DNA of 49,744 nucleotides, taken from the IMG/VR virus record IMGVR_UViG_3300031566_000065, positions 1 to 49,744 of that record; one strand, given 5' to 3'. Made by a program: the position numbers and the translations under genes. A model generated the notes under the pieces. That model was not told the origin of the DNA and ran no database searches. It was given only the letters and a program-made list of their open reading frames with translations. This document shows positions 2,773 to 40,287 of this stretch, piece by piece. The stretch comes from a virus. Position 1 is the stretch's first letter, and the number at the start of each line of letters is the position of its first letter.

Positions 2773-3411
2773 TTATAAGTTTTTAATTCGTTCAATCTCT
2801 TTTTTAACCTCAATTTTAGCCTCGTTAAGGCGTTCAATAATTCTTTGAATAGTCGTATTATCTCTCTCGACAATTATATCTAAAGGCTTTAGATTAGGAT
2901 GAAAAGAGGTAAATACATTGTATGATCTGTTAGTAACTAATAATTCAAATTGCAACTGTTTATCATATACGCCTATTATCGGATTCTTGCCCTCTTTAAA
3001 TTTTGTTAAATATTCCTTATGAGTGCTGAATATTGGGCATTTAATTTGATGTAGAGCATCATCGTTTATCAGACCGTCAGGGCTGCACAACGTCCAATCA
3101 TCCATTATCACAACACCAACTTTTTTTACTACTTGAAGATGCCTTATTTCGTAATCTTCACGCGCCAACCCTTCTAATTCGTGCCCTCTATTCGTAAACG
3201 CATTCCCTTTAAATAAATTGTTTTCGCATGACTGTCCGGTTATTCGCTCTTCAACTATTCTATTTATTAAAGATTCATAGCCTTTTGTTTTTTTATCCAT
3301 CAGCAAATCGCTTGCAATAGATGCGCTAAACATCCCTAATTTGATTTCGAGCCATTCGTCAGAATCTTGTTCAATATCATATCTATATATCGGGCTATTC
3401 ATTTGAGTCAA
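2773..3411 (-). CDS. YqaJ/lambda-type exonuclease with Gln in the catalytic motif
   Basis: A PD-(D/E)XK exonuclease of the YqaJ/lambda Exo family, which resects DNA ends for single-strand annealing recombination. Visible are QDSDEWLEIKLGMFSAS (residues 15-31), the helix GHELEGLAREDYE (76-88), SPDG with D112, and HQIKCP (121-126) with K124. The family normally has Glu in the last motif (EIKCP), but here it is Gln122. Length 212 aa is normal. It overlaps the 172-aa gene upstream by 17 bp. Confidence 0.85.
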   Translation of the reverse strand: MTQMNSPIYRYDIEQDSDEWLEIKLGMFSASIASDLLMDKKTKGYESLINRIVEERITGQSCENNLFKGNAFTNRGHELEGLAREDYEIRHLQVVKKVGVVIMDDWTLCSPDGLINDDALHQIKCPIFSTHKEYLTKFKEGKNPIIGVYDKQLQFELLVTNRSYNVFTSFHPNLKPLDIIVERDNTTIQRIIERLNEAKIEVKKEIERIKNL

Positions 3412-3913
3412 AGATTAGTTTATCCTCTGTTTCTTTGTCGAAAGAATAATATTTTTTCAACTCCTCCACAGTCTTCCCGTCTTTTAAAAACTGAACGGCC
3501 GCCTTGTATTTATCAGGAGCTAATGTTGTTTTTATTTTTGGCTCAGAGGGCTGTGTTTGCCTTATTCTTAATCCTTCAACCGTATCGCTTCCAAATTTAA
3601 CACTTGCATCAACATATACCTGAATTTTTATATTTACCCAATCTTCTAAATGTGTTTTGTTGCCTGCAAACTTTTTGATAGTTTTAGAGTTCGTCACATT
3701 TAAGATCATTGGTTTTGTGCCGGAAATATGTTTTCCTTTTTCGTCAAATTTTGATCCTTTAAATATAGCAACATTACAAAACTTCTTTCCTGATTGGGTC
3801 ATGCATTCTTTATAAACTACCTTTTCGATAGTTAGTATTAAATCCTTGTCATCTATGTCGCTTGATGACAAGTAATCGGATTTAAAAGCTTTTTTCCAAT
3901 GAGTTTTCTCCAT
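3395..3913 (-). CDS. Exonuclease-associated conserved phage protein, 172 aa
   Basis: Starts MEKTHWKKAFKSDYL. Residues 25-105 look like alternating strands (LILTIEKVVYKE, MILNVTNSKTIKKF, NIKIQVYVDAS), compatible with an OB-like fold, followed by a linker and a small helical domain. Relatives sit next to exonucleases in Bacteroidota phages. An ssDNA-binding or annealing role is inferred from position and predicted fold only. Confidence 0.65.
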   Translation of the reverse strand: MEKTHWKKAFKSDYLSSSDIDDKDLILTIEKVVYKECMTQSGKKFCNVAIFKGSKFDEKGKHISGTKPMILNVTNSKTIKKFAGNKTHLEDWVNIKIQVYVDASVKFGSDTVEGLRIRQTQPSEPKIKTTLAPDKYKAAVQFLKDGKTVEELKKYYSFDKETEDKLIFDSNE

Positions 3914-3917
3914 AGTT

Positions 3918-4103
3918 TTAGTTTTTAAAATGATAATTTACATCCCTATTAAGTTCTTCAAATTTGCATTTAGTCTTTTTAAGAATGCTTAAATACAATG
4001 AACACTCTTCTTTATTCGTGCTCGGGTCGTGAATCTTATCAAAAATAATTTGATAAAGTACCGCCTTTTCTTTTTCGGTTAGATTAGTCGTTTTTATTTT
4101 CAT
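3918..4103 (-). CDS. Hypothetical protein, 61 aa
   Basis: A small, charged, mostly helical protein (MKIKTTNLTEKEKAVLYQII). It overlaps the next upstream gene by 20 bp and precedes the 172-aa gene by 4 nt, so it is translated within the recombination operon. Confidence 0.6.
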   Translation of the reverse strand: MKIKTTNLTEKEKAVLYQIIFDKIHDPSTNKEECSLYLSILKKTKCKFEELNRDVNYHFKN

Positions 4104-5240: not shown

Positions 5241-5285
5241 GCTGTTTTATATTTGTTTATTATTGATTTATTATTTTATTTTTAA

Positions 5286-5338
5286 ATTGTTAGTACTTTA
5301 TAGCGTACGGAAATGGACGTGCGCTCTATTTTATGTTG
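5286..5338 (-). repeat. Hairpin cassette element, copy with inverted centre
   Basis: The flanks ATTGTTAGTACTTTAT and CTATTTTATGTTG surround a 24-bp imperfect palindrome (5302-5325) containing GTACGGAAATGGACGTG. The copy at 49353-49405 has the same flanks in the same orientation, but its centre is the reverse complement of this one, with one mismatch. Confidence 0.65.
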
Positions 5339-5441
5339 TATGCAATGCCTAAAATAAAGTTGTTTAAGTTAAATTTTAGGCTGCTGTGCATTTATTAAAA
5401 AAGGCACAGCATACAACACATTATATAGGTAATGCAACGTG
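5334..5441 (-). repeat. Nested inverted repeat after the 62-aa gene
   Basis: The outer arms TGTTGTATGC (5334-5343) and GCATACAACA enclose the inner arms GCCTAAAAT and ATTTTAGGC. The adjoining segment, read on the minus strand as GCATTACCTATATAATGTG, recurs with few changes in the site at 37475-37590 (GCACATTACCTATGTACTG). The shared block marks one sub-family of the cassette sites. Confidence 0.5.
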
Positions 5442-5483
5442 CATTTAATCAGCATTGGTGCAAGTTTTATTTTTGCCAAAGCG

Positions 5484-5672
5484 CTATTTATCATTCTCAT
5501 TAACATTTAAAACTATCTTATGCCCTGTTCTGCATCCCATCCCATAAGTTGAATCAACATAGGCTTTTATCTGTAAGTTTTCCATTTTTTCAACTGCATC
5601 TGTTTCAAATGAGTTTTCTGGTGTTAACACTATTTCAGTTCTACCATTCTCAATTACTATTTTTGTTTTCAT
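5484..5672 (-). CDS. Hypothetical protein, 62 aa (cassette gene)
   Basis: A small beta-rich protein (KTKIVIENGRTEIVLTPENS ... GHKIVLNVNEND). No family recognised. It stands alone between two hairpin sites, like its neighbours. Confidence 0.55.
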   Translation of the reverse strand: MKTKIVIENGRTEIVLTPENSFETDAVEKMENLQIKAYVDSTYGMGCRTGHKIVLNVNENDK

Positions 5673-5728
5673 TTTAATTTAGTTTTATGCCCCACGCTCA
5701 AAAAATAAAACGGGAGCGGTTATACATT

Positions 5729-5786
5729 TAATTAACTTTCGTGCAGCTTGGAGGGTTGCACTCCCCATATAATTGTACCGTTAGGC
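5729..5786 (-). repeat. attC-like cassette site
   Basis: Minus-strand order: GCCTAACGG just after the stop of the 59-aa gene, then GTGCA, loop, TGCAC, GAAA, GTTAATT. The right end GCACGAAAGTTAATTAAATG recurs almost unchanged at 39950-39970. Confidence 0.55.
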
Positions 5787-5790
5787 ACAA

Positions 5791-5970
5791 TTAAATTATT
5801 AATTTCTGTGCTTTATCATCCGCAATTTTTCTAATTCTATCAGACCACCCCATTCCGTCTACATCAAGGTATTTTATGTAATATCCATTAGTTGTTTTCA
5901 TTAAAATTGCTAACGAATCTGGTTCTTTAGATTCATCATACTTTACTATAAATTGTTTTAATATTTCCAT
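5791..5970 (-). CDS. Small hypothetical protein, 59 aa (cassette gene)
   Basis: Starts MEILKQFIVKYDESKEPDSL; the middle TTNGYYIKYLDVDGMGW suggests a short beta sheet followed by a helix. It begins after the A-rich leader of the upstream hairpin site and ends 5 nt before GCCTAACGG. It is under 60 codons and easily missed. Function unknown. Confidence 0.55.
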   Translation of the reverse strand: MEILKQFIVKYDESKEPDSLAILMKTTNGYYIKYLDVDGMGWSDRIRKIADDKAQKLII

Positions 5971-6050
5971 AATTTAAAAGTGCCTAATAATGGCTAAAGT
6001 TAATAGCCTAACTAGGTCTTGTTATAATTTGATGGTTAGTAATTAAGGCT

Positions 6051-6177
6051 ACTAACCTTAGCCTAAGCGTTGTGAGTAATGCCTTTTTACATTTGTGTTG
6101 TACCTTAATCTTAAACTTTGTAACTATTTAAAACTAAGGCACAACTCACAACAACGCTTCATAAAGCATACTGTTAG
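6051..6177 (-). repeat. attC-like cassette site, long arms
   Basis: On the plus strand ACTAACC is followed by AAGCGTTGTGAG, a loop of about 70 nt with its own stem (TTGTACCTTA / TAAGGCACAA), then CTCACAACAACGCTT and GTTAG. A second smaller repeat, CTAAC...GTTAG, lies at 6008-6040 region. It follows the 84-aa gene on the minus strand. Confidence 0.55.
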
Positions 6178-6208
6178 TTAGCTCGTATAAGCATTTTTCC
6201 AGTCATCC

Positions 6209-6463
6209 CTAATCAGGCAAATTAACTTTCTTCTTATTAGCATCTTGCCAATCAATAAATTCATTGTACCTATTACCAACACTATCAATATGCTCTTGCG
6301 CACAATTAGTTTCTTCGCACTTGCCAAAGTATTCCCAAATAGCAGCAATACTGTTTTGATCTTTTGCAGTTAACACAAATATTGGAGTGCCGTTTTTCTC
6401 TGCATCTGCAATAATCTTCTTGTCTTTATCTGTCATGTTTTTATTGTTATGCCCTCGCTTCAT
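6209..6463 (-). CDS. Hypothetical protein, 84 aa (cassette gene)
   Basis: A soluble protein with a KDKKIIADAEKNGTPIFVLTAKD segment and two Cys (CEETNC). No family recognised. It is a single gene flanked by hairpin sites. Confidence 0.6.
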   Translation of the reverse strand: MKRGHNNKNMTDKDKKIIADAEKNGTPIFVLTAKDQNSIAAIWEYFGKCEETNCAQEHIDSVGNRYNEFIDWQDANKKKVNLPD

Positions 6464-6484
6464 TACTCAGGCGGTTTATATTCG

Positions 6485-6536
6485 TATTTAATTCTGTACT
6501 AAATTGCTGTACGCTTCATAAGCTTGTCCGTTATAA
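6485..6536 (-). repeat. attC-like cassette site
   Basis: Read on the minus strand, TATAACGGACAAGCTTATG runs into AAGCGTACAG and the short repeat GTAC...GTAC. The AAGCTTATGAAGCG segment resembles the start of the site at 6051-6177 (GCTTTATGAAGCG). The GTT end is not obvious. Confidence 0.4.
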
Positions 6537-6548
6537 ACAAATAAAAAA

Positions 6549-6785
6549 TTAATCTCTATACTCTTTAATCAACTCCCTTCGCTCATCAAAATATTTAACC
6601 TTCCAATGCGGGTGGCAATTATCAGAGTGTTTATTCCCTTCAAATCTTACCGCTAAGTTTCCGTTGTAATCACCTGTAACTATTCCTTTTTTACCATCAA
6701 CTTCTACTGCCATATTTCGCTTTAAGAAGTTCAATCCTCGCTGTTCTTTCATGTATTCAAACATCTGTTTGTTAAATCTTGCCAT
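6549..6785 (-). CDS. Small SH3/KOW-like phage protein, 78 aa (cassette gene)
   Basis: The stretch VEVDGKKGIVTGDYNGNLAV looks like a small beta-barrel (KOW/SH3-like) that often carries a G-I-V-x-G turn. The N-terminus is basic and helical, the C-terminus charged. A nucleic-acid or protein-binding adaptor is possible; no specific role can be assigned. Confidence 0.6.
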   Translation of the reverse strand: MARFNKQMFEYMKEQRGLNFLKRNMAVEVDGKKGIVTGDYNGNLAVRFEGNKHSDNCHPHWKVKYFDERRELIKEYRD

Positions 6786-6807
6786 AATATTAATTTTTAA
6801 TTTGTTT

Positions 6808-6861
6808 CTCGTTTATAATTTTTCGGGTTAATCCCGTACTTTTCATACACGGCACGTTATT
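6808..6861 (-). repeat. attC-like cassette site
   Basis: On the minus strand AATAACGTGCC, whose TAA is the stop codon of the 61-aa gene, is followed by GTGTATGAAAAGTACGGG and the small hairpin CGGGATTAACCCG. The right side runs into the A-rich leader of the 78-aa gene. Confidence 0.45.
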
Positions 6862-7042
6862 TATTCCAAAGAATATAATCCCTTGATGCTTCTAATAGCT
6901 TAAGCATAGAGCTTGATTCTCTCTTAAATTGATTAAATTCCAAATTCATAACCTCGATGTATTTTGAAATTAATACATCGTTTTTCGTTGAATAAATAAG
7001 GTCCGTTAATTCGTTTCTTAGCTTAGTTAAGTTTTCTATCAT
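6857..7042 (-). CDS. Hypothetical helical protein, 61 aa
   Basis: Starts MIENLTKLRNELTDLIYSTK; predicted to be all helical. It has its own promoter at 7064-7095. The stop codon TAA forms part of the AATAAC box of the hairpin site downstream. Confidence 0.6.
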   Translation of the reverse strand: MIENLTKLRNELTDLIYSTKNDVLISKYIEVMNLEFNQFKRESSSMLKLLEASRDYILWNK

Positions 7043-7063
7043 AATTTATATTAGTTTAAAGCA

Positions 7064-7151
7064 CAAATCTACACTTTTATATTGACATATGCAAGTTTAT
7101 TTAAAAATATGTCATTTTATTTTTATTTAATATTTATTTGACATATATTTG
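7064..7151. promoter_or_regulatory. Divergent promoter region with TGACATAT motifs
   Basis: The minus promoter reads CTTG, a 20-bp spacer, TAGATTTG (7064-7095) and serves the 61-aa gene. A plus -7 box TATATTTG lies at 7144-7151, though its -33 box is poor. TTGACATAT occurs at 7083-7091 and 7138-7146, and ATATGTCA at 7107-7114. The three copies look like operators for one repressor controlling both directions. Confidence 0.55.
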
Positions 7152-7173
7152 CAGTGTAAATAAAATTAAAATT

Positions 7174-7233
7174 ATGATTGATGTAAATGGAATTGAAATA
7201 AAAGTAGGACAAAAAGTAAAAACACGGATTTAA
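7174..7233 (+). pseudogene. 19-codon remnant (MIDVNGIEIKVGQKVK...)
   Basis: The frame MIDVNGIEIKVGQKVKTRI stops after 19 codons, 23 nt downstream of a TATATTTG box. The start resembles a family of small Bacteroidota phage proteins that normally runs much longer, so this looks like a truncated gene or a short leader peptide before the 139-aa gene. Confidence 0.4.
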
Positions 7234-7247
7234 AAAACTGAACAATT

Positions 7248-7667
7248 ATGAATGATGAATTAAGAGATTTAGCTGAAATAATGCAGGAAGAACATGAGAA
7301 GCAAGTAGCCGATTGGACTAAGGCAAAAGAAGAATTAGACGGACTGATAGAGCCGAAATATTTTGACTTTGCAGAAAGCCATGAAAGTTACGGGAGCGAG
7401 GGCATTGTAAACATTATTGAAGTAAAAGAAAGGAAAAGTGGATATCAATCTTATCCGCATTGTAGAGAATTTGGAACTAATGAGCGTAGGCTTTATATGA
7501 AACATACCACAGAATTAGAAACTGAAAGTGGTGAGTCAAAATATGAAGGCTCGGATATAGTGTACTGGGTTTGGCAAACAGTAGGGTATTGTGAAGATGA
7601 CTACAGTGGATTTCTTCTTTTGCCGATGATAGATGGTAGATATTGGAAAATTAGCTACAGTTGTTAG
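7248..7667 (+). CDS. Hypothetical protein, 139 aa (plus-strand cassette gene)
   Basis: An acidic protein with a helical N-terminus (MNDELRDLAEIMQEEHEKQV) and a beta-rich C-terminus (IVYWVWQTVGYCEDDYSGFL). It is one of four plus-strand genes in a block of mostly minus-strand ones. A plus-oriented hairpin site follows its stop. Confidence 0.65.
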   Translation: MNDELRDLAEIMQEEHEKQVADWTKAKEELDGLIEPKYFDFAESHESYGSEGIVNIIEVKERKSGYQSYPHCREFGTNERRLYMKHTTELETESGESKYEGSDIVYWVWQTVGYCEDDYSGFLLLPMIDGRYWKISYSC

Positions 7668-7690
7668 TGTTTTTATTATTTATATACCAT

Positions 7691-7808
7691 GTTGTGTTGC
7701 TGTTTTAATGCAACACAACGGTGGCAATAAGGCACGTTTGGCTATTCATAACTTGTCAAATTATTACCGAACTTTGCAGCCAAATGGGCTTTATTGCGTG
7801 TTATCGGC
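7691..7808 (+). repeat. attC-like cassette site, plus orientation
   Basis: A first hairpin GTTGTGTTGC / GCAACACAAC (7691-7719) is followed by ACAACGGTGGCAATAAGGC ... GCTTTATTGCGTGTTATCGG. The AAC box at 7717-7719 and GTT box at 7800-7802 bracket arms GGCAATAA / TTATTGC plus an inner AGCCAAA pair. The ends match the site at 8250-8335. Confidence 0.6.
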
Positions 7809-7850
7809 TGCCTTTTATTATTAAATTTTAAAATTTTAAATAATTACAAA

Positions 7851-8240
7851 ATGAAAATTGAAAATTCAAAAATTACAATGTCAATCAATCCTGAATATAC
7901 AGAGATTGAAATAACCGATTCTGATTCTAATACAGCTATTGCAAAAGTAAAATTAACACCTGAACAATTATCAGCAATTTTATCAAGACAAGGATATGTA
8001 AATTGTGAATGTTCAACAGGAGATTTGACAAGAGTTGGGAAAAAGCACGAAAACAAGTATTTTGAGTTTGAAATAACTTATTCAAAAACTAAAGAAGATT
8101 TATCACTTGCTTGTAATGAGGCATTATTCCAACAAAATATGCACGAATGGGTATCAGATAATTACTATCAATCTCAAAATTCTTTCTTTTCAAAAGATGG
8201 TAAGGATTATGCCCGTACTGTTATTCGTAGGTGGGTTTAA
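7851..8240 (+). CDS. Hypothetical protein, 129 aa (plus-strand cassette gene)
   Basis: ATG at 7851 (MKIENSKITMSINPEYTEIE) is preferred over a TTG at 7794 because the latter lies inside the hairpin site and the ATG has an A-rich leader. The protein is beta-strand rich at the N-terminus. Function unknown. Confidence 0.6.
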   Translation: MKIENSKITMSINPEYTEIEITDSDSNTAIAKVKLTPEQLSAILSRQGYVNCECSTGDLTRVGKKHENKYFEFEITYSKTKEDLSLACNEALFQQNMHEWVSDNYYQSQNSFFSKDGKDYARTVIRRWV

Positions 8241-8249
8241 GGTTGCCGA

Positions 8250-8335
8250 TAACGTTGGCAATATGAAACGGTTGCCTAGTAAGACGTTTCAAATTTACTA
8301 ACAGCCTATCGGCAACCGTTTCATATTGCGTGTTA
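8250..8335 (+). repeat. attC-like cassette site with perfect 19-bp arms
   Basis: The arms GCAATATGAAACGGTTGCC (8258-8276) and GGCAACCGTTTCATATTGC (8311-8329) are fully complementary. A TAAC box lies at 8250-8253 and TGTTATG at 8331-8337, with unequal unpaired spacers (GTTG and GT) between box and arm. This is the layout of R and L boxes in a folded integron attC site. It begins 10 nt after the stop of the 129-aa gene. Confidence 0.65.
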
Positions 8336-8425
8336 TGTATTTGGCGCATTATTAAGCACTTAGTTTGCTACGAAGTAAGGTAATTTTATTATTTTTTTAG
8401 GGTGGGTTATTTTTCTTTAAAATTA

Positions 8426-8457
8426 TTTGTTTGTTACGAAACTATTACGTAACTTTG
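8426..8457 (+). promoter_or_regulatory. Plus-strand promoter with CGTAAC inverted repeat
   Basis: TTTG (8426-8429), a 20-bp spacer and TAACTTTG (8450-8457) match the Bacteroidota consensus. GTTACG and CGTAAC form an inverted repeat across the spacer, and TTACGTAA is a palindrome, suggesting an operator for the RHH-like product of this operon. Confidence 0.6.
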
Positions 8458-8482
8458 ACGTAAATAAATTAAATATAATGCT

Positions 8483-8920
8483 ATGAAAAATATTTATGAA
8501 AAAGCAATAGAAATGTTGAAGCCTGAGTATTTAAAATGCACAGGTATTGACAATGTTGAAAGAGAGTTAAAGCTTTCACTTGGGAATTATAGAATAAAAT
8601 TTGAAGGTTTTGAATTTGTATTTAATGAATCTGGGGATGGATATGAAAGATTTATTAAGATAATGAAAAAAGATATTGGATTTACTTTTAAAGTAATGAA
8701 AAATGACCCCGAAGATTTAAACAGAATGCAATATGTATACGATGTTACAGTTGCAGCAAAAAACGAACAGTTGTTATTGCCATTTGCTAAAAAAGTAATG
8801 CCCGACTGGAAGAAAATTGATAAGAAATTTCCGGGTAAAGTTTCAAAAATCGAATACGATTCTTTAAATATTCACGATAAAAATGCAGTTGTAAACTTAT
8901 TAAATACATTGACTGCATGA
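8483..8920 (+). CDS. Hypothetical protein, 145 aa
   Basis: Starts MKNIYEKAIEMLKPEYLKC; mixed alpha/beta, no recognised motif. It shares a promoter with, and overlaps (ATGA) the small RHH-like gene, an arrangement seen in toxin-antitoxin or autoregulated pairs. No toxin fold is recognisable, so this stays an idea. Confidence 0.6.
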   Translation: MKNIYEKAIEMLKPEYLKCTGIDNVERELKLSLGNYRIKFEGFEFVFNESGDGYERFIKIMKKDIGFTFKVMKNDPEDLNRMQYVYDVTVAAKNEQLLLPFAKKVMPDWKKIDKKFPGKVSKIEYDSLNIHDKNAVVNLLNTLTA

Positions 8921-9087
8921 AAACAATTGAAAAGGTAGAACTTGCCGACCAAGAACATGCAGATTATTTAAAAGCATGCAAAGAACTTAACCGAAGTATG
9001 AGAGGTCAAACATCTCAACTTATTCGTGAATTTTTAAAGCGGGTTGGCAAAAAAAATAATAAAATTACTCCTACTGAACCTGATTAG
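8917..9087 (+). CDS. Ribbon-helix-helix-like small protein, 56 aa
   Basis: KVELADQEHADYLKACKELN then RSMRGQTSQLIREFLKRV fits a strand followed by two helices of the Arc/CopG class, with a disordered tail NKITPTEPD. The start overlaps the stop of the 145-aa gene by 4 bp. It could repress the 8426 promoter through the CGTAAC repeat. Confidence 0.5.
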   Translation: MKTIEKVELADQEHADYLKACKELNRSMRGQTSQLIREFLKRVGKKNNKITPTEPD

Positions 9088-9090
9088 AAG

Positions 9091-9160
9091 TACGGCATTG
9101 CGCTTGTACATAACACCGATATATATGTAACGTCCGTTTTCGGACAGTGCTAAGTAATTA
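9091..9160 (+). repeat. Hairpin cassette element, plus orientation
   Basis: Contains ATATATGTAACGTCCG, loop TTTT, CGGACAGTGCTAAGTAATTA. On the minus strand the same block recurs at 33040-33095 (TATATGTAACGTCCG), 37475-37505 and 39601-39636 (CGGACAGTGCTAAGTAATTA). The hairpin GTCCG-TTTT-CGGAC is perfect. Confidence 0.6.
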
Positions 9161-9210
9161 ATTTTTAAACAAATAGCTTATGAATTAAAAAGCAGCGGGA
9201 ACAGTAAACT

Positions 9211-10026: not shown

Positions 10027-10566
10027 TTAAACTTCTATTGGTTTTACAAATCCTAAAAGCCTTAAGCCTGTATTTTTATAAAAATCATATTCCCTTTTCT
10101 TTTCGTAAACTCCTTGCCCTTCTCTGCTTCCTGCGGCATTCGTATTTCCTTCGACGGTATCAAAATACAACTGGTGTACTCCGGTAACTATGCCAACATG
10201 CCCCGTAAACCACGATCCGTTTTTTACAGGTTCGTTATTTTTATAGCTTTGCCAAAAAACAATATTGCCCGGTTCTGGCTTATTCGAAACTTTAAATCCT
10301 TTTGCATTTTTGAAGTTTGTATATGTTTTATAGGCGTTTTCAGAAAAGATTTTTTGCAATTTGTAAATATAAGTACTGTCTAATTTCCCATATGCCTCAC
10401 ACACCACCAATTCAGCAAATAAAGAACACCACGCCTCTCCGCTGTCAAATCCAACACCTTTCATTTTCTCCTCAAAAATAGCATTTTCAAATCCTGCATT
10501 TTTGCCAACCTCTTTCATTCCTATGTATGATTTGGCTGTTTGTACTATTAAATCTCGTATGTTCAT
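10027..10566 (-). CDS. CHAP-domain endolysin
   Basis: A NlpC/P60-superfamily CHAP peptidase of 179 aa. The catalytic Cys47 is in GEAWCSLF, His123 in GHVGIV, and Glu139-Asn141 in VEGNTN. The N-terminus IVQTAKSYIGMKEVG resembles amidase/CHAP endolysins of Bacteroidota phages. No signal peptide, so it would need a holin to reach the cell wall. Confidence 0.85.
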   Translation of the reverse strand: MNIRDLIVQTAKSYIGMKEVGKNAGFENAIFEEKMKGVGFDSGEAWCSLFAELVVCEAYGKLDSTYIYKLQKIFSENAYKTYTNFKNAKGFKVSNKPEPGNIVFWQSYKNNEPVKNGSWFTGHVGIVTGVHQLYFDTVEGNTNAAGSREGQGVYEKKREYDFYKNTGLRLLGFVKPIEV

Positions 10567-11377: not shown

Positions 11378-13114
11378 TTATAATACTTTTTTAAAACAGC
11401 GATTTGTATTACGAAAAACAGCAGCATTTTCTCCATCATAACTGCGCTGTACATTATTCCCACTAAACACATACAAAGTTCCATTTAAAATACCCATCGT
11501 ATGCCCTCTTAATGGATAAGGATAGTTATTAATAATTTCCTCAGTCCATGCATTTGTAGCAATATCATAAACTCGTAATGTATTAGTCAGTTTTTGATTG
11601 ACTGATGCAACCCTATCAACAACCCCTCCTAAGATATATATTTTACCATTATAAGCTCTTGCTTTAGTATAACTACCGCCTGTTGGTATCGCTGCTACTT
11701 CGTCCCATGTATCAGTAGCTGTATTATACCTTTGAACTCTTGTTGAAGATGTAAAATCAGGATATGTAGCCATACTTTCGTTTCCACTTATAGCATATAT
11801 ATATCCATTATATTGAGTCACATAATCACCTAAACACATTCCTACTGGTGCATCTGTTTTGGTAACATCCCAAGTGTCTGTAGATGGATCATATATTTGA
11901 ATTTTTGCATACACAGTTACTCCATCCCATCCACCAATTACATATACTTTACCATCATAAACACAGCCTCCCATATCTTCAATTGGAGTCGGTATATCTG
12001 TAAGTTGAGTCCATGAGTTTGCAACTGGATCATATTCGTAGCATTCAGCAATAATAACACTTTTACCGGCACCACTTAATAAATACATTTTTGTTCCTAC
12101 TGTCTCAATCACAAAAGACTGATATATGTTTGGTGCATTTGTTAATTGAGTATAGCTATCTGTTGTAGGGTTATACTTATAAAATTTATTAGTCAAAGTA
12201 CTACTCCCTTCAACAACTCCATCCAATCCACCTAGTATATATATTTCTCCATCATACTCACAACTATTATGTTGATTTACTCCATAGTCAATAGGGTAAT
12301 TAGCTATTTCTTCCCACTCTGTATCTATTATTGTATCTGTTGTTTTTAATACTTCTTCAAAATCTAATACCTTATTAAAAACACAAAGTTCTTGCATTTT
12401 ACCATCTAATTGATAATTGCTCCCAGGATTACCATCCCAATTACCAATCATAAAATCTTTTACTCCTGCCATTACAGAAGGAAAACTAGTATTAATTTCT
12501 GAACCAATAAACACTCCTTTATAATAGATGGATACCAAATCTTTATCACAAACAAAGGCTAAGTTATGAAAATTACTATCATCATAATTTACTGTTTGAC
12601 AGGTGACGTCCCCTCCAATTAATTGAATTGTTTCATCATCAGCAATTCCCCATAAAGCTCTATTTGGTGCATCAAAAACATAATTAAATATATAGCTACC
12701 TACCGTTCCATAATTATCAATAGAAAATTTCATGGTTACTGTATATTCTCTACCCATAAAAGAAGATAACGCACTTAATATAGTTAACCAATCCCCTGAA
12801 CTAAAATCAATACCACTATTTAAGGCTGGCTGGCTTGATTCAGTTGCTTGTGTAGCGTGGTTGTTTTTAAAATCGTACCACTTAGTTACAAATTGTGAAT
12901 CTCTTAATTTTGATCCTGCTTCGTGAAATAATAATAATAATGCTTTATTGTATAGTGGTTCACCTATTCTTTGCAAAAAAGCCTTTGTATTAGTTTCATT
13001 TTCCAGCGAACCCCCATCAGCCTCAACCGCTTGTTTATATAGAGTTAAACCAGCCGTCGGAAATAACGAAGCTGCTTTATTTGAAATATTACTATTTATG
13101 TTTACGTTTAACAT
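11378..13114 (-). CDS. Tail-associated LamG plus kelch-repeat protein, 578 aa
   Basis: The N-terminal 80 residues may attach to the virion. Residues about 100-260 look like a LamG/concanavalin-type sandwich (TVTMKFSIDNYGTVGSYIFN; VFIGSEINTS; FMIGNWDG). Residues about 268-560 carry five to six kelch repeats, with YDGKVYVIGGWDG and YNGKIYILGG motifs, forming a beta-propeller. This suggests receptor or glycan binding. In frame after the TAA, NEINPPPTTPITL follows, as if a proline-rich end had been lost to a stop. Confidence 0.7.
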   Translation of the reverse strand: MLNVNINSNISNKAASLFPTAGLTLYKQAVEADGGSLENETNTKAFLQRIGEPLYNKALLLLFHEAGSKLRDSQFVTKWYDFKNNHATQATESSQPALNSGIDFSSGDWLTILSALSSFMGREYTVTMKFSIDNYGTVGSYIFNYVFDAPNRALWGIADDETIQLIGGDVTCQTVNYDDSNFHNLAFVCDKDLVSIYYKGVFIGSEINTSFPSVMAGVKDFMIGNWDGNPGSNYQLDGKMQELCVFNKVLDFEEVLKTTDTIIDTEWEEIANYPIDYGVNQHNSCEYDGEIYILGGLDGVVEGSSTLTNKFYKYNPTTDSYTQLTNAPNIYQSFVIETVGTKMYLLSGAGKSVIIAECYEYDPVANSWTQLTDIPTPIEDMGGCVYDGKVYVIGGWDGVTVYAKIQIYDPSTDTWDVTKTDAPVGMCLGDYVTQYNGYIYAISGNESMATYPDFTSSTRVQRYNTATDTWDEVAAIPTGGSYTKARAYNGKIYILGGVVDRVASVNQKLTNTLRVYDIATNAWTEEIINNYPYPLRGHTMGILNGTLYVFSGNNVQRSYDGENAAVFRNTNRCFKKVL

Positions 13115-13115
13115 G

Positions 13116-15197
13116 TTATCTGTCTATTGCTGTTCTTACGTGTATATCCATTGACTGTACTGCATTATTTGCTCCTGTTGTTATTCTTATAATAAACCCG
13201 TCTCCATTAGCTCCATGAACGTATTCGCTCAAATCTGTACGCTTCCATGCAAAAGGCAACGCATTTGCTAAATTGTCTTTAGTACCCATGTCTACTGATC
13301 TTTTTGCTAAAACAGTTCCCCCCGGTACGAATCCCGAGGCTGCATAAGTCCATCCAGCAGTTGAATGTTTAAACAGTGTCATGTCAAAGTCAGTTGATGC
13401 CGCCCCCGCTAATCCTACAGCTTCAATGCCAGTTATATAAAAATTTCTGTTTCCTGAATCGTCATATTTAGCATATCCATAATTAAAAGTTAAAGAGTAA
13501 GTTGTTGGACTCCCGCTAGTTGTGATTAATTCAAAAGTAACTATACCATTAAATTTCTTGCCCTCAAAATATGCGTTTAGACTTGTTGTAGTAATATCTG
13601 TCAACACTGTATCAGCATCACTTACTATTATATTGCCTTCATCATCTACACTAGTTCCTGTCATTCTTAAACCGACCGTTCCTGAATTAACTGTGCCAGC
13701 GCCTCCGCAAACGATGAAAAAATGCGCAGCATACCCGACATTGGCAGTGCCATAAGTTACTGTTGTAGAGGCGTTTGTTAATGTTGCGCTTGTTGCGTTG
13801 GCTCTGTAAAATCCAGCTCTATAAAATTGACCGACCCCTATACCCTGAGACGTGAAATTGTAGTCCATCGACTCTACAAGCCTCGCCTCTTCGTATGTTA
13901 CGTTTACATATACTATCCCTTCCGTTGCATCAACTTTTATGCATTTACCAATATTCAACACCCTGCAAGGGTAAGCAGGTTTAGTATTTTGTAAAACACC
14001 TTCACCTAAATAAATGCTTGATGTTGTGCTTAAAGTAGATGTATTACCATGCCTAACCTCGCCTCTTACAGCGACGTATCCCCATGAATTATTTGGAATA
14101 TCCATAGTTGCTAATCCTGCAAAATTATCCGTAGTTTCGTGAACTCGGCAATCTGATAAGGCAATTGTGATTATACTATCACCATTAGACCCGCTTAAAT
14201 AAACAGGGTCAAAATTATCAATATCAGCACCCGAATTATTATAAACTTGTACCAAATCTTCCAGTGCGCCTTGCCATACTACATTATTGTTTCCCATCCC
14301 AAATTCAAATGTTCCATCTGATTCATTCCATCTGATAAAATGATTGTCTAATACTACGCTATCAGATATTTGAGCATATTTATTTACGTATAAATTAGAG
14401 TCTACAACTAAATGTCCTTTGTTGTGTGTTGTATCTACATTAAATGTTAATTCATCCGTTGCAAAATCACCGTAAATTATAGGGGTAGGATCGCTTGTAT
14501 TTGTAATGGCTAGTTTATTATTTCCTGTAATGTTCGTGCCTGCACCATTTCCTAAAAAAACATGCCCATACCCGCTTGAGTTATATCCTGCTTTAAATCC
14601 TACAGCTGTGCTACTATCGGAACTAATTATAGAAGATGCGCCAAAAGCTCTACTCCCAACAATGGTGGCGGCGTTTGAATTTTCTAAATATCTGGCGGCA
14701 TCCTCCCCTATTATTACATTAAAATCTCCCTCATTTCCATACCCGGCATCTACTCCTATTATTGTATTATATCCTCCTGCCTCTTCGTTTCCCATTGTGC
14801 CTTGACCTATCAGAATATTATTATATTCATTTTGCATTACTAATCTTCCATTATTAAAAGTAAAAAACCCAGTATATAAAAAATCAGTTCCGGCAGAATT
14901 CATGTAAGGAACTTGTCCGTCTGTTCCTGCTGAAAAAAAAGTATAAGCACCTATGCTATCACTAATTTCTTGACTTATGTCGGTTGATGTTGAATAATAA
15001 GATAAACTATCCAGTGTGGCATAATTTAATAGCAACTCTCTAACAAATTCGTTTGTTGTTAACGTGTCTCCCGTTGCAATATTAGTTACGGTGCTATCGT
15101 TTAAAGAAATAAAGTTTCTGATATATATTTCGTCAAATTCTTGACTTTTAGCATATATGCAAACAAATATTAATAATATTGTTAATAACTTTTTCAT
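13116..15197 (-). CDS. Large adhesin/tail-fibre-like protein with signal peptide, 693 aa
   Basis: It starts with a Sec signal MKKLLTILLIFVCIYAKSQ, which is odd for a virion protein. Residues about 130-225 have NxxIGxxAG-type repeats as in trimeric adhesin head domains (NTIIGVDAGYG; NVIIGEDAAR). Residues 300-690 are beta-rich. The position between the kelch protein and tail genes suggests a fibre, but the leader implies secretion or surface display on the host. Confidence 0.65.
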   Translation of the reverse strand: MKKLLTILLIFVCIYAKSQEFDEIYIRNFISLNDSTVTNIATGDTLTTNEFVRELLLNYATLDSLSYYSTSTDISQEISDSIGAYTFFSAGTDGQVPYMNSAGTDFLYTGFFTFNNGRLVMQNEYNNILIGQGTMGNEEAGGYNTIIGVDAGYGNEGDFNVIIGEDAARYLENSNAATIVGSRAFGASSIISSDSSTAVGFKAGYNSSGYGHVFLGNGAGTNITGNNKLAITNTSDPTPIIYGDFATDELTFNVDTTHNKGHLVVDSNLYVNKYAQISDSVVLDNHFIRWNESDGTFEFGMGNNNVVWQGALEDLVQVYNNSGADIDNFDPVYLSGSNGDSIITIALSDCRVHETTDNFAGLATMDIPNNSWGYVAVRGEVRHGNTSTLSTTSSIYLGEGVLQNTKPAYPCRVLNIGKCIKVDATEGIVYVNVTYEEARLVESMDYNFTSQGIGVGQFYRAGFYRANATSATLTNASTTVTYGTANVGYAAHFFIVCGGAGTVNSGTVGLRMTGTSVDDEGNIIVSDADTVLTDITTTSLNAYFEGKKFNGIVTFELITTSGSPTTYSLTFNYGYAKYDDSGNRNFYITGIEAVGLAGAASTDFDMTLFKHSTAGWTYAASGFVPGGTVLAKRSVDMGTKDNLANALPFAWKRTDLSEYVHGANGDGFIIRITTGANNAVQSMDIHVRTAIDR

Positions 15198-33039: not shown

Positions 33040-33104
33040 ATTGAATTTTAATTACTTATAACGTACGAAATCGGACGTTACATATACCCACATGTTGTAC
33101 ACAA
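33040..33104 (-). repeat. Hairpin cassette element
   Basis: TAACGTACG-AAAT-CGGACGTTA (33059-33080) is a palindrome with one mismatch. On the minus strand it reads TATATGTAACGTCCGATTTC then GTACGTTATAAGTAATTA, the same element as at 9091-9160. It follows the 102-aa gene's stop. Confidence 0.6.
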
Positions 33105-33604: not shown

Positions 33605-33643
33605 TATTTATGTTTTTAAAGTTTAAAATTACATTTATCTATG

Positions 33644-33683
33644 CAAAGATAATAAATATTTTGTATATACCAAATATATACAA
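33644..33683 (-). promoter_or_regulatory. Promoter with TTGTATATA palindromic operator
   Basis: The minus strand reads TTTG, a 19-bp spacer, TATCTTTG (33644-33651). The perfect inverted repeat TTGTATATA-CCAAA-TATATACAA (33661-33683) covers the -33 box, so a bound repressor would block it. Confidence 0.65.
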
Positions 33684-33684
33684 T

Positions 33685-33714
33685 AAAAAAGTTGCCGATT
33701 TTTCAACCGGCAAC
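33685..33714 (-). terminator. Intrinsic terminator ending the packaging operon
   Basis: GTTGCCG (33691-33697) and CGGCAAC (33708-33714) form a stem followed on the minus strand by T6. It separates the 33753 gene from the early operon. Confidence 0.8.
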
Positions 33715-33752
33715 CTAAACTAAAACTAAGATATAATGAAGAAATAAAAAGC

Positions 33753-34364
33753 CTATTCTAATTCCTCTAAATTTATTGGAGTATCACTTACTGCTTGAAA
33801 TGAAAAAGGTATCTGATTACGAAAACCTTCTATCTGAGGCATTGCGAATGTCTCTATAACTATTTGATTGATTCCAAATATTTCATTTAAATACTGGCTT
33901 ATTACGTCTATTTGTTGCGGCACTTGCATAACTTCTTTGAATGCTATAATGTCGCTCAATGGGATTACGTTTGATTTATTAGATATAAATCCTTTGCCAT
34001 TTATTTCAAAATCCCCATCACTTACATATTCTTTTACTGTTCCGTTCCTGCCTTGAATTGCCGTTTTGACTATGTTTTTAGATTGGCTTACTTCAAGGAT
34101 TACTGTTGCATTTTTTATGCCACCGAAACTTATATCATTGCCCTGTAAGTCAATATATCTCCCTTCTGGAAATTCAAGTATATCCATTATCGGCGTACCA
34201 TATTCAGAGTTTCCAATCGATTGCTCTATTTCTATATTTGACAAAGATAAATTAAATGCAGTGCTTCTTAATGCTTGTATAGCCCCGCTTGTTATAGCAA
34301 ATGGTCTGGGGGATATATCAAATATGCCTGAATTTTCTGGTATTTTAAAAAACTTTACTGCCAT
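33753..34364 (-). CDS. Bacteroidota phage structural protein (DUF6046-like)
   Basis: The start MAVKFFKIPENSGIF at 34364 is preferred, since the longer frame from 34406 runs back into the terminase. GRYIDLQGNDISFGGIKNAT and VKEYVSDGDFEINGKGFI resemble the DUF6046 family found in Bacteroidota phages and tail-like particles. A baseplate or tail role is likely but not shown. Confidence 0.6.
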   Translation of the reverse strand: MAVKFFKIPENSGIFDISPRPFAITSGAIQALRSTAFNLSLSNIEIEQSIGNSEYGTPIMDILEFPEGRYIDLQGNDISFGGIKNATVILEVSQSKNIVKTAIQGRNGTVKEYVSDGDFEINGKGFISNKSNVIPLSDIIAFKEVMQVPQQIDVISQYLNEIFGINQIVIETFAMPQIEGFRNQIPFSFQAVSDTPINLEELE

Positions 34365-34380
34365 GCGACAAAGATATAAA

Positions 34381-35967
34381 TTAATATTGTTTTTTCCTAT
34401 AGCCAATAACTGGCATTATAAACTCGCCTCTCATTTGGAATTCACGATATTCTCTGCTAAATGCTTGCGTTATTAAATAATCGAAAGTATCGCTAGTGTG
34501 CCCGTATTTTTCATATCTTATTCCCGTTCTTACGTCTGTTTCTTTTGTTTTGTATTTAGTTCCGTCGGGGGCTTCTTTCGTAAACCTAAAGTCATTTATT
34601 GAGTTATGGCACGAATTATCTATAAAAAAATTAATGCCTCCGTAATTAACTTCAAAGACCTCGTTTATAAAACTGCCCCTCATTGCAATTGACGGGTTTG
34701 CCATTGGTAGTCTTATTGAAGGGTTTAATTTTTCTATATATTTACAAAACAATGTAAAAAAGTTTTGCCCTTTTTCTAATTTAGTGTCCTCTTTTTTACT
34801 TGTAGCATCACCGTATACGAAAACTCCTGACTTATGATTGCCGTATTTTTTCAAAAATTCCAAAGCTAATTCTTTCAATGTATTTTTCGGATGAGTCAGG
34901 CAAAATTCATCTATTTGGTATATACTACTTCCTATTATTTGGTATAAAGTTCCTGTTATATACGGATTGACATTTTCGTCAAGCGATATATGAAGTGCTA
35001 CAGTTGAATTGTAGACACATTCCTGTATATGAACAGATTCTTTAAAGCTTTTATAAAACTCATTACCTGATTCCATTATCTTAGGATTTTGCTGTTGCAA
35101 TGCTTCAAACTTTACAATATTCCTTTGCCTCGCCTCCATTGCTGATAAGTAAGAATGCATTTCCTCCCATAACACCTCGCCGATTTTTCTAGGATCGTTC
35201 GGATTTGAATCGTCTGTTTTTATTCGAGGGAATGTTATTACCTCCCAATTTCTAGCATCTTCATGATTGCTATATTTTAAAATCCTGCCCGCTAAGTCAT
35301 CAATATTCCATCTTGTAAGAGTAATTAATATTTGACTATTATTGTTTAGTCTTGTTTCTAATTCGGTTGTGTACCATTCCCATAATTTTTCCCTGTACGT
35401 TTGAGAACCAGCCTCTTCTGCTCCTTTTATTGGGTCATCTATCAATGCAATGTCTACAGGATTTCCAGTTATACCGCCTCCGACACCTACCGATATAAAC
35501 GACCCATTTTTATCAACAATCTCAAACGTTTCGGAATTTCTCAAATACGAGCCTTTTGAATCGGTTGATACATTTCTGTTATTAAGCTTCGTCTCTGGAA
35601 ATATGTCGCTGTAAGAGTTGTTTGATATTATCCGCTGTACTTGCCTATTAAATTTAGATGCAAATGTTGAATTATAGGCGCAAAGGGCTATTCTTAGATT
35701 TGGATTTCGCCCTAACATGTATGCAGGAAGTCTTCTGGACGTTAATTCACTTTTACCATGTTGTGGAGGCATAAACACCATCATCCTTTTTATTTCCCCG
35801 TTAGCAAATTTATTTAGTTTATCACATAGATATTTATGATGCCAATTTACTAAGTAGTTTTCTTTTGTGTATAATGTAAATGCTAGTATATCCGATTTGG
35901 CTTTAATGCATAATTTTTGACGTTCTAAAGCGTAAAGTTCTTCTAATGCCCCTAATTCATCCATCAT
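34381..35967 (-). CDS. terL: Terminase large subunit
   Basis: 528 aa. Walker A PPQHGKSE (residues 67-74), Walker B VDIALIDDP (171-179) and coupling motif LITLTRW (214-220). The nuclease half has ALHISLDENVN with D330 and VFVYGDATSKKED with D387. It pumps and cuts DNA at the portal. It follows terS directly. Confidence 0.92.
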   Translation of the reverse strand: MMDELGALEELYALERQKLCIKAKSDILAFTLYTKENYLVNWHHKYLCDKLNKFANGEIKRMMVFMPPQHGKSELTSRRLPAYMLGRNPNLRIALCAYNSTFASKFNRQVQRIISNNSYSDIFPETKLNNRNVSTDSKGSYLRNSETFEIVDKNGSFISVGVGGGITGNPVDIALIDDPIKGAEEAGSQTYREKLWEWYTTELETRLNNNSQILITLTRWNIDDLAGRILKYSNHEDARNWEVITFPRIKTDDSNPNDPRKIGEVLWEEMHSYLSAMEARQRNIVKFEALQQQNPKIMESGNEFYKSFKESVHIQECVYNSTVALHISLDENVNPYITGTLYQIIGSSIYQIDEFCLTHPKNTLKELALEFLKKYGNHKSGVFVYGDATSKKEDTKLEKGQNFFTLFCKYIEKLNPSIRLPMANPSIAMRGSFINEVFEVNYGGINFFIDNSCHNSINDFRFTKEAPDGTKYKTKETDVRTGIRYEKYGHTSDTFDYLITQAFSREYREFQMRGEFIMPVIGYRKKQY

Positions 35968-36426
35968 TTACTTAATGCCTAATTTATCTTTCAATTCCCT
36001 TATGCGTTCTTCTCTTTTTTCTTCGGTAAGTGATTTCAGCTCCTTATCTCCAGACGTTAAATCCTGCCTATCCGTCCACTTGTGATTAGACTTTAAATTA
36101 ACTATTCCAGTAGCTTCTCTTATAAATCCTTTTTTTGTGTTGGAATAACAATTTTGTTCTAGGTTGTTTATCAGTACGTTATACTTTCGGCTTAAGCTTG
36201 GAAATCTTTTAATTAAGTGCCTAAATATCTCGTGAAAAGTTCCAAGTTCTCTGGCGACTTCTCCTATAAAATCAAATTCATATCCCTCTACTTCTCTTTT
36301 TTCAACGCCCTTAATTAATGTCTGTATCGTTGTTTCATTCGTTAGCTCTATGGCATCATTAAAAAGGTTTATGGCTCTTTTTATGCTCCATTTTTCTGCG
36401 TTTTTATTCCCGTACGGTGCAGCCAT
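35968..36426 (-). CDS. terS: Terminase small subunit
   Basis: 152 aa. MAAPYGNKNAEKWSIKRAIN is a common small-terminase start, with a helical centre (EVARELGTFHEIFRHLIKRF) and a charged C-tail (TEEKREERIRELKDKLG). It abuts terL. It recognises the packaging site. Confidence 0.75.
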   Translation of the reverse strand: MAAPYGNKNAEKWSIKRAINLFNDAIELTNETTIQTLIKGVEKREVEGYEFDFIGEVARELGTFHEIFRHLIKRFPSLSRKYNVLINNLEQNCYSNTKKGFIREATGIVNLKSNHKWTDRQDLTSGDKELKSLTEEKREERIRELKDKLGIK

Positions 36427-36448
36427 TATTTTTTATATTTCAATGTTG

Positions 36449-36772
36449 TTAAATTTCGTTACTAATTCTCTCTAGCTCCTGTATTTCTTCTTTTGTAAAA
36501 TCTCCAAAATATCCTGCTCCTATAAAGTCAACTCCCTCGAACTCCCTTATGTGATTAATGTATTTTTCAAGTAATTTTTTATAACAAATGTTTGGTTTAT
36601 AGTTTTTATAATCTGAATGTTTTATAGTTTTTAATACTTCTGCGTTTATTTTTAAATTTTTATCTATGTCAGTATTATAAGCAATACTTATTGGTGTATC
36701 ATTAATTCCGTAAATTAGATATCCTCCACGATTTATAAGTTTATTTAATTCTGCTTTTTGTATATCGGTCAT
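36449..36772 (-). CDS. Hypothetical protein upstream of terS, 107 aa
   Basis: Starts MTDIQKAELNKLINRGGYLI and ends TKEEIQELERISNEI. Mixed alpha/beta, no recognised family. It is the first gene after the promoter at 36858-36889, so it leads the packaging operon. Confidence 0.6.
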   Translation of the reverse strand: MTDIQKAELNKLINRGGYLIYGINDTPISIAYNTDIDKNLKINAEVLKTIKHSDYKNYKPNICYKKLLEKYINHIREFEGVDFIGAGYFGDFTKEEIQELERISNEI

Positions 36773-37089: not shown

Positions 37090-37461
37090 CTATTTTTTAA
37101 GTTGATTAAGCGTTTCTGTTGTTACAATTATTTTTGTCGGCGCATTTTCAATAGCTTTTTTAAGTGCTTGTAATAATTCCTTTTTACTTTTGCATAAATG
37201 TTCTATTGCTTTATAAGGCGTTAATCCTCTAACCATTGATTCAAAAATACTTCTAAATTCGGCATCGTATTGAAACTCCTCAAAAAATTCCTCTGTAAAT
37301 TTTGATTTTAATACGAATTGATCTGTAATATTTTGCTGGCTGTCCAAATAAAAATCAACCATAAAGCATTTTAAAGAATGTATTGTAATGTTTGTTCCTG
37401 TTCCAAATCCTGCATTGGATATGTACTTTTCTGCTTTTTCGTTTAATTCGCTTCTATTCAT
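37090..37461 (-). CDS. Hypothetical protein, 123 aa
   Basis: A helical, acidic protein (TEEFFEEFQYDAEFRSIFES) with an N-terminal MNRSELNEKAEKYISNAGFG. No family recognised. It stands next to a hairpin cassette element at its 5' side. Confidence 0.6.
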   Translation of the reverse strand: MNRSELNEKAEKYISNAGFGTGTNITIHSLKCFMVDFYLDSQQNITDQFVLKSKFTEEFFEEFQYDAEFRSIFESMVRGLTPYKAIEHLCKSKKELLQALKKAIENAPTKIIVTTETLNQLKK

Positions 37462-37474
37462 AATACTTTATTTT

Positions 37475-37590
37475 TATGTCCGGTTTCGGACGTTACATAT
37501 ATTTATTTGTTGTGCTTCATTAAAACGCCACTTCGTTAAGCACAACACAGTACATAGGTAATGTGCTTGCTTTTCAAATGGGCGTTAGTG
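37475..37590 (-). repeat. attC-like cassette site with GTCCG hairpin
   Basis: Minus-strand order: ACTAACGCC, then AAGCAAGCACA, loop TTACCTATGTACTG, TGTTGTGCTT, then GGCGTTTTA. AACGCC and GGCGTT pair, as do AAGCACA and TGTGCTT. This is an R-L...L-R order like attC. A second hairpin GTCCG-GTTT-CGGAC lies at 37478-37491. Confidence 0.6.
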
Positions 37591-37962
37591 CTATTTTGGA
37601 GGAGTAAAATTAATTTTCCTTCCCACCGCACGTTCATATTCGTCAACTAATCTTTGTTTAACTTCCTTAGTTAAGTATCTGCAAGGTTTCTCACCTTTAA
37701 TAACCTCCAATCCATGCACACTGCTATCATACGCCGTGTAGTTTCGCATTCCGTGGCTTATATCCGCTTTTGTAAACGGCATCCATCTACCGAAGTGGTG
37801 TTCTACGTGGCATTTTTTACCATTTCTTTTCCTGTAGGTGTCTTGTTGGTTTACAAAAGCTTTCATTGTGCTAAAATTAACGTCAAACACTTTGTATTTA
37901 CTGTCAATCTTCACGGCTTCCATTTCTGCCAAATATTGTTTTGTTCTATAATTAAATTGCAT
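37591..37962 (-). CDS. Hypothetical protein, 123 aa (cassette gene)
   Basis: His/Arg/Lys-rich (RKRNGKKCHVEHHFGRWMPF), with an alpha-helical C-terminus (KEVKQRLVDEYERAVGRKIN). A nucleic-acid or phosphate ligand is possible from charge alone; no family recognised. Confidence 0.6.
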   Translation of the reverse strand: MQFNYRTKQYLAEMEAVKIDSKYKVFDVNFSTMKAFVNQQDTYRKRNGKKCHVEHHFGRWMPFTKADISHGMRNYTAYDSSVHGLEVIKGEKPCRYLTKEVKQRLVDEYERAVGRKINFTPPK

Positions 37963-37989: not shown

Positions 37990-38047
37990 TTCGTAGGTAG
38001 CTTAGTAGGTTATCGAAAAAGCACACTACCCATGTACTAATTCGTTA
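37990..38047 (-). repeat. attC-like cassette site, decayed right end
   Basis: Minus-strand TATAACG (the TAA is the stop codon of the zinc-ribbon gene) is followed by AATTAGTA ... TACTAAG and GGTAG ... CTACC pairs. The GTT end is not clear. Confidence 0.4.
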
Positions 38048-38302
38048 TAGTTCAGTTTGCCATTTTTCAGAACACGACATGCATACAAATGTTCCGTTCG
38101 GTGTCATTACCCAGTTGCGTTTTTTGCATTTAGGGCAAACCGAAACAATAACACCATTCGCTTGCAGTCGTTCTTTAATCCAATCTTCTGCATCTTTATG
38201 TAAATCTGATTCAGGGTGCATTACGTATTTGCAAAATTCTCTAATTTCATTGGCTGCAAATTCCTCTTTTGTCGTTTCCTTTTTCTCGTTTAAGTCGCTC
38301 AT
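38045..38302 (-). CDS. Zinc-ribbon phage protein, 85 aa
   Basis: CPKCKKRNWV and CMSCSEKW form a C-x2-C ... C-x2-C zinc ribbon at residues about 56-80. The first half is helical and acidic. A DNA or RNA binding role is plausible. The stop codon forms part of the AAC box of the hairpin site. Confidence 0.65.
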   Translation of the reverse strand: MSDLNEKKETTKEEFAANEIREFCKYVMHPESDLHKDAEDWIKERLQANGVIVSVCPKCKKRNWVMTPNGTFVCMSCSEKWQTEL

Positions 38303-39575: not shown

Positions 39576-39604
39576 TATGCTTGGTTATTAGTTTAAAAAT
39601 TAAT

Positions 39605-39650
39605 TACTTAGCACTGTCCGATAACGGACGTGCGCTCTATTTTATGTTAG
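39605..39650 (-). repeat. Hairpin cassette element
   Basis: Minus-strand GCTAACATAAAATAGAGCGC then ACGTCCG-TTAT-CGGACAGTGCT and AAGTAATTA. Its left half matches the elements at 5286 and 49353, its right half the one at 9091, so it appears a hybrid. The TAA of GCTAAC is the stop codon of the 93-aa gene. Confidence 0.6.
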
Positions 39651-39928: not shown

Positions 39929-39957
39929 TGTACTATATTTTAAGTGTTTTGCATTTA

Positions 39958-40014: not shown

Positions 40015-40020
40015 TCCATG

Positions 40021-40245: not shown

Positions 40246-40287
40246 TTTATAATTAAGTTTTAAATTTCTAAAATAAAGCACGAAACG

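Follow-up and report, generated by a model that had tools for sequence, protein, structure and literature searches.

The window analyzed here is a whole IMG/VR virus contig of 49,744 bases (IMGVR_UViG_3300031566_000065), and it carries groups of small genes separated by hairpins laid out like the attC sites of integrons. We consider it probable (roughly two chances in three) that these groups are several integron-type cassette arrays without an integrase of their own, that is, a multi-array cluster of attC sites lacking an integron integrase (CALIN), anchored at attI-like elements. Each array would be anchored at one of the seven copies of an attI-like phage element, and a recombinase provided in trans from the host or another element would join a cassette, made up of a single small gene with an attC hairpin, to the element at G↓TT (the arrow marks the crossover). 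The genes would be inverted relative to the canonical attC direction, with their 3' end at the crossover and the hairpin as 5' leader, sometimes with the start codon, so that the array genes of an element facing against phage transcription would be co-directional with the phage genes. These results suggest that phages of this kind exchange their accessory genes through integron recombination.

Based on its structural genes (terminase, portal, head protease and major head protein, together with tail sheath and tape measure), the window is a contractile-tailed phage (myophage), and its relatives and the class of its attC sites point to a phage of Bacteroidota. An earlier annotation of the block at 5286-9160 (hereafter, the original prediction) had noted that no integron integrase was present, and indeed no match to the tyrosine recombinase family PF00589 was found in the whole 49.7-kb record. 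With at least two attC sites and no intI gene, the window has the composition of a CALIN and not that of a complete integron.

Sites were located with a scripted scan that looked for inner arms bounded by short unpaired spacers and outer AAC..GTT boxes, with 56 Markov-shuffled windows as the null; this was used rather than a covariance model because terminal loop lengths vary widely. Genome-wide, seven sites scored at least 17 and six at least 19, compared with 0.054 and 0.018, respectively, expected per shuffled window. All seven fall between small genes, two of them inside 5286-9160 and five on the minus strand of 39,885-43,748. They have the attC layout of pairable outer R boxes, unpaired spacers, inner L arms and a variable terminal loop. 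Relative to the strict RYYYAAC and GTTRRRY boxes, AAC/GTT and GTTA/GTTG are kept and several sites are off RRRY (GTTATGT, GTTATCG). That these are chance inverted repeats in AT-rich intergenic DNA is extremely improbable: five of the eight sites originally claimed in the block do fail the scan, as chance repeats would, but the excess over the null lies entirely in cassette regions and near-identical sites are found in independent phages.

Within the block, the full AAC-spacer-L''...L'-spacer-GTT layout is present in two plus-strand sites. The first, at 8249-8336 (8251-8334 in the scan), scores 24 and has an R box, spacers of 4 and 2 nt and perfect 19-bp L arms (8258-8276/8311-8329), much as had been described for 8250-8335. 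The second, at 7717-7802, scores 19.2, lies within the site placed earlier at 7691-7808 and belongs to the same L-box family as a site in comparison sequence L006 (3331-3386). The original prediction had described a cassette-like block with ‘eight or more’ such sites; the attC-like hairpins are real, but there are fewer of them in the block. In addition to the two full sites, one atypical attC-like inverted repeat is present on the minus strand at 6051-6178 (R box of 6 bp, spacers of 14 and 8 nt, score of 18.8 with relaxed spacers), and five claimed sites fail. With relaxed spacers, the candidates near 5286-5470, 5690-5800, 6440-6560, 6785-6870 and 9085-9165 scored at most 9.4 or gave no call, and the inverted repeats at 5324-5428 and 6069-6152 read GTT..AAC, not AAC..GTT. 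What had been claimed as a site at 9091-9160 is no attC; the sequence there is a copy of a different, repeated element (9114-9168).

A second, larger array lies on the minus strand at 39.9-43.7 kb, outside the coordinates considered earlier, and contains five sites scoring at least 17 plus one scoring 15.0. These are located at 39885-40010 (score 21.8), 40290-40375 (22.0), 40713-40799 (19.6), 41293-41415 (21.4), 43209-43330 (17.4) and, the weaker site, 43627-43748 (15.0). The L' arm and R box of the first are translated in the following open reading frame (ORF) at 39647-39928 (GYDRLLAT), the site at 41293-41415 holds the start codon of the ORF at 40810-41352, and the 3' half of the weaker site is translated in the ORF at 43341-43685 (IAYDALLY). 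The site at 43209-43330 is 75% identical to 3872-3995 of a sibling contig (L056) over exactly the site. Across the whole genome, 19 of 20 cassette-like genes have a YAAC box at -3 to +43 nt relative to the stop codon.

A palindromic element is repeated seven times in the window and twice in L056. When all nine copies are aligned at G↓TT, the left side is conserved and the right side is variable. The left part consists of a GTCCG..CGGAC-type palindrome followed by either GCTCTATTTTATG (type A) or TTACATATA-N7-G (type B), while the variable side past G↓TT is, in the copies examined, the start of the 3' end of a cassette-like gene. Type A copies, all on the plus strand, are found at 5281-5335 (..GGACGTGCGCTCTATTTTATG↓TT, with an array extending to higher coordinates), at 39592-39646 (start of the 39.6-41.8 kb array), as a variant at 42393-42447 (start of the 42.4-43.7 kb array) and at 49347-49401, beside a DNA methyltransferase-like ORF. 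Type B copies are found on the plus strand at 37455-37509, with a matching element at the corresponding place in L056, and at 33040-33094, and on the minus strand at 9114-9168 (CGGACGTTACATATA-N7-G↓TT), where the copy appears to anchor a plus-strand array and overlaps the discarded 9091-9160 site.

By inspection, the far ends of the arrays share no sequence. An array anchored at attI would be expected to have one conserved end, with a fixed crossover, and one heterogeneous end, and judging from their sequence the repeated elements probably act as attI. The six copies ending at 5335, 39646, 42447, 49401, 37509 and 33094 have the same orientation, opposite to that of the copy at 9114. Mixed gene orientation had been regarded as unlike a normal array; genes do lie on both strands of the block, but this is accounted for because the elements at 5335 (plus) and 9114 (minus) face oppositely. 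The genes at 5484-7042 (minus) would then belong to the former and those at 7248-9087 (plus) to the latter.

Two further observations concern these elements. The copies at 5281-5335 and 49347-49401 have the same flanks, but the 16-bp palindromic core that lies between GCG and CGC has opposite orientations in them (5308-5323, TACGGAAATGGACGTG; 49374-49389, CACGTCTATTTCCGTA). Inverted repeats of the form GTTGT..ACAAC occur in the window at 5324-5428, 6069-6152, 7690-7720 and 37508-37545 and in L056 at 236-266; several end exactly at the attI-like crossover, and they may be terminators or another type of site.

The same class of site is found in other phages. A 16-base attC pattern retrieved 35 viral stretches, of which about 25, all AT-rich, carry attC sites, and 67 non-redundant sites were collected from other viral contigs (pattern matches plus earlier loci). 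These share the layout TAACG, a 4-6-nt spacer, L arms, a 2-3-nt spacer and GTTA. Strand asymmetry is also present: the mismatches seen in 52 sites of other phages cluster at L-arm positions 6-8 and 12-14, and wobbles are mostly G(5').T(3') and rarely T.G. Isolates with sites include Cellulophaga phages phi17:1 and phi19:3 and Polaribacter phages P12002L and Leef_1. Homology between contigs often spans exactly one attC, as would be predicted if related attC sites were associated with different genes. The gene at 7248-7667 has a homologue in two other viral contigs, where the neighbours differ and other attC sites are close by; the original prediction had proposed looking for such changes of neighbours. 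A 24-base attC core (AACGTTGGTATAAGAATAGTAGCC) had no match in a scan of genome contigs that did not reach host chromosomes, and a plasmid search for shared cassettes gave no Bacteroidota match. Among individual loci, six tandem attC-type sites occur at 12609-15101 of an unannotated 462-kb phage record (LR756500.1, L156), and Cellulophaga phage phi19:3 (L155, 8243-10504) has two unannotated attC-type sites beside an annotated tyrosine recombinase.

The orientation of genes relative to these sites is unusual. In class 1 and Vibrio attC sites, the R' box at the crossover reads CGTTA; its complement is TAACG, and by comparison with these sites we took the AACG end as the R' side, placing the probable crossover at TAA↓CG. 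The aadA attC sequence is present in 2,515 plasmid records. In an ordinary cassette, attC follows the 3' end of the gene it belongs to, but in phage contigs the 3' end of a gene abuts the TAACG (crossover) end at 63 of 64 scorable sites, the opposite arrangement. Start codons inside the site number 19 on the gene strand versus 0 on the other. From these two results we infer that the phage cassettes are inverted relative to ordinary ones, with attC as a 5' leader. Because the constant elements stand at gene 3' ends and start codons lie in the sites, a site more likely travels with the following gene, and the earlier view of each site as the 3' tail of the preceding gene is disfavoured.

These data bear on another explanation, in which the window is a conventional CALIN whose ordinary forward cassettes came from a host integron by chance, each hairpin belonging to the upstream gene, with crossover at GTTA and the repeated elements unrelated. 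Such a history has precedent, as Qi et al. (2023, PMC9892861) describe 17 phage CALINs, one of them (P12002L) with divergent sites, and the leader that follows GTTA at 8329-8412 is common to the window and comparison sequence L146 despite different hairpins. We nevertheless consider it unlikely, given that, in the copies examined, constant element sequence gives way to variable sequence at gene 3' ends, that the 63 of 64 sites are oriented oppositely to the two scorable sites of a Chryseobacterium plasmid array and that 19 start codons lie inside the hairpin.

In several cases, ORFs start in the loop of the preceding attC (window 39647-39928, 40810-41352 and 43341-43685; L004 259-507 and 1185-1412; L006 2582-2938), and the L' arm and R box are translated (GYDRLLATV, IAYDALLYT, TYDALLATV). 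We abandoned the hypothesis that the reading phase of attC-encoded N-termini is fixed, as codon positions 1 and 3 were both seen.

Gene exchange is most evident in L056, the one true relative among 87 stretches retrieved by a viral scan for AACATRAAATAGAGNG, the rest being mostly chance matches. L056 and the window share 99.3% identity across a 2,988-base stretch of packaging genes (window 33,627-36,614), but L056 carries different genes on both sides of this shared core, attC sites included. Because the core is near-identical and the flanking genes differ, the exchange must be recent. The original prediction had suggested examining related phages; L056 has the expected combination of the same core with different accessory genes, although some of the changes lie off attC sites. 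Together with the site statistics, the occurrence of the same class in many phages and the change of neighbours, this sibling supports the earlier proposal that the genes entered as mobile cassettes.

Several points weigh against integrase-less arrays anchored at attI-like elements. Some of the other gene exchanges in L056 lie away from attC and attI-like sites. Comparison of window 8329-9114 with L146 shows only a common leader after GTTA and a common gene tail as far as TAAC, while the hairpins and the bodies of the genes are different, a pattern unlike a simple single-crossover cassette. Most sites in the block at 5286-9160 are degenerate. The evidence for the attI role is the sequence of the elements; an element doubles as the leader of the next phage gene, and element halves are reshuffled between copies at the palindrome, as homologous recombination could do. 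Finally, the scanner and its thresholds were made after some sites had already been seen, and the comparison contigs were partly chosen by the 16-base attC pattern. In the alignment with L146, the leader and tail (8329-8412 and 9028-9114 versus 6793-6709 and 6141-6055) are 84-85% identical and the gene between them is unrelated.

Part of this pattern would also arise by recombination at module boundaries, with hairpins and leaders as shared regulatory sequences and phage or host homologous recombination acting at short repeats without an integrase. Reshuffled element halves, leaders and tails conserved around different genes and swaps away from attC in L056 all fit, and by sequence inspection 2773-3411 appears to encode a recombination exonuclease. 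Against it stand an R-box, spacer and strand-asymmetric stem layout conserved across unrelated phages and inter-phage homology that often covers exactly one attC. Moreover, class 1 IntI1 is reported to have recombined one of two tested attC sites of P12002L (PMC9892861), a phage carrying the same site class. We regard recombination at module boundaries as a quite unlikely explanation.

For cassette arrays recombined in trans, candidate enzymes are found in related contigs. PF00589 matches were present in 4 of 25 attC-bearing viral contigs, and XerA-like recombinases of 268-275 amino acids occur in four contigs (from the 25-contig set plus one earlier contig). In three of these (G025, G030 and G035), the recombinase gene sits at the crossover-side end of the array and starts ~250-400 bases away from the first attC; in the fourth contig, ~1.5 kb separate the gene from its nearest attC. 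XerA-like recombinases were also found in Polaribacter phage Leef_1 and in a Chryseobacterium plasmid array. All scored recombinases had NCBIfam NF040815 as their best match (181-224 bits), making this XerA-like family the best match of recombinases beside Bacteroidota attC arrays, whereas against the IntI model TIGR02249 those of the related contigs reached 122-207 bits, below the cut-off of 265. When the recombinase of L139 was aligned to the Vibrio IntI structure 2a3v, residues 181-242 were skipped, approximately where the integrase-specific insertion sits; this insertion in the catalytic domain has been called essential for integron function (PMC8138268). We infer that either an XerA-like recombinase or a host IntI does the recombination, the XerA-like role at attC being that of a candidate. 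Members of the XerA-like family that have been studied (archaeal XerA, for example) serve in chromosome-dimer resolution. In the Chryseobacterium plasmid (NZ_CP041688.1, L149, 9599-19720), the XerA-like gene is followed by cassettes in the ordinary orientation (2 of 2 scorable sites), and three of the sites are near-identical.

A more ambitious version of the proposal, which we hold only as a tentative and rather doubtful possibility, is that a lineage of Bacteroidota phages evolved its own integron platform, with multiple dispersed attI, inverted cassettes, attC as leader and start region and XerA-like enzymes lacking the insertion regarded as essential in integron integrases.

Phage integron cassettes and CALINs are already known, including in a Polaribacter phage, but integrons are reported to be very rare both among complete genomes of Bacteroidetes (PMC9024848) and among phages, with 21 of 10,705 genomes (PMC9892861). 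The phage CALINs described there, and P12002L in particular, resemble the window in having integrase-less attC clusters and small genes; they came from virulent phages, had sites in more than one direction and included an attC functional with IntI1. Compared with what that text describes, the window differs in its several arrays, its repeated attI-like anchor and its consistent gene inversion. Canonical integrons (class 1 and the Vibrio superintegron) have in common with it the R and L boxes, the G↓TT crossover, one-gene cassettes and attI-anchored arrays, but the phage genes are reversed relative to attC, intI is absent and the attI-like element is present in several copies rather than one. 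An atypical gene orientation is also known from Treponema integrons (PMC3607928), but in those intI is read in the direction of attI and the cassettes, whereas here the cassette genes themselves are inverted. An open-access full-text literature search found no report of dispersed attI-like elements, consistent inversion or an XerA-like association, and these three features look new.

If the site class is as common in Bacteroidota phages as the contigs suggest, integron recombination would be a regular route for accessory-gene exchange in phages, and the class may be overlooked by search tools built around other types of attC. The usual picture of a single attI and a single promoter would be altered by dispersed attI-like docking sites and inverted cassettes. 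An XerA-like enzyme, if it acts on attC, would provide a test of which part of IntI is required for recognition of folded single-stranded DNA.

The unrelated small genes noted originally are real ORFs with few or no database matches. In the block, cassette-like genes lie on the minus strand at 5484-5672, 5791-5970, 6209-6463, 6549-6785 and 6857-7042, with mostly degenerate sites between them, and cassette genes lie on the plus strand at 7248-7667, 7851-8240 and 8483-8920, plus 8917-9087. Three minus-strand cassette-like genes at 37591-37962, 38045-38302 and 38394-38687 have YAAC half-sites only. The array region at 39647-43685 contains minus-strand cassette genes at 39647-39928, 40021-40242, 40384-40680 and 40810-41352 in its first half and at 41414-41794, 42448-42846, 42933-43193 and 43341-43685 in its second, with what look like non-cassette phage genes at 41864-42377.

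An Rfam search of 4-10 kb returned only a sub-threshold chance match to mir-722, on the 19-bp hairpin, and the proteins encoded at 6549-6785, 8483-8920 and 10027-10566 had no relatives in viral or genome scans. A nucleotide search of the block against phage records gave a single match of 57 bases, to Cellulophaga phage phi17:1. At 7174-7232, an apparent truncated gene start (MIDVNGIEIKVGQKV) is fused directly to the leader of the 7248-7667 cassette, and the homologue of this gene in L003 has an attC where the window has the truncated gene start.

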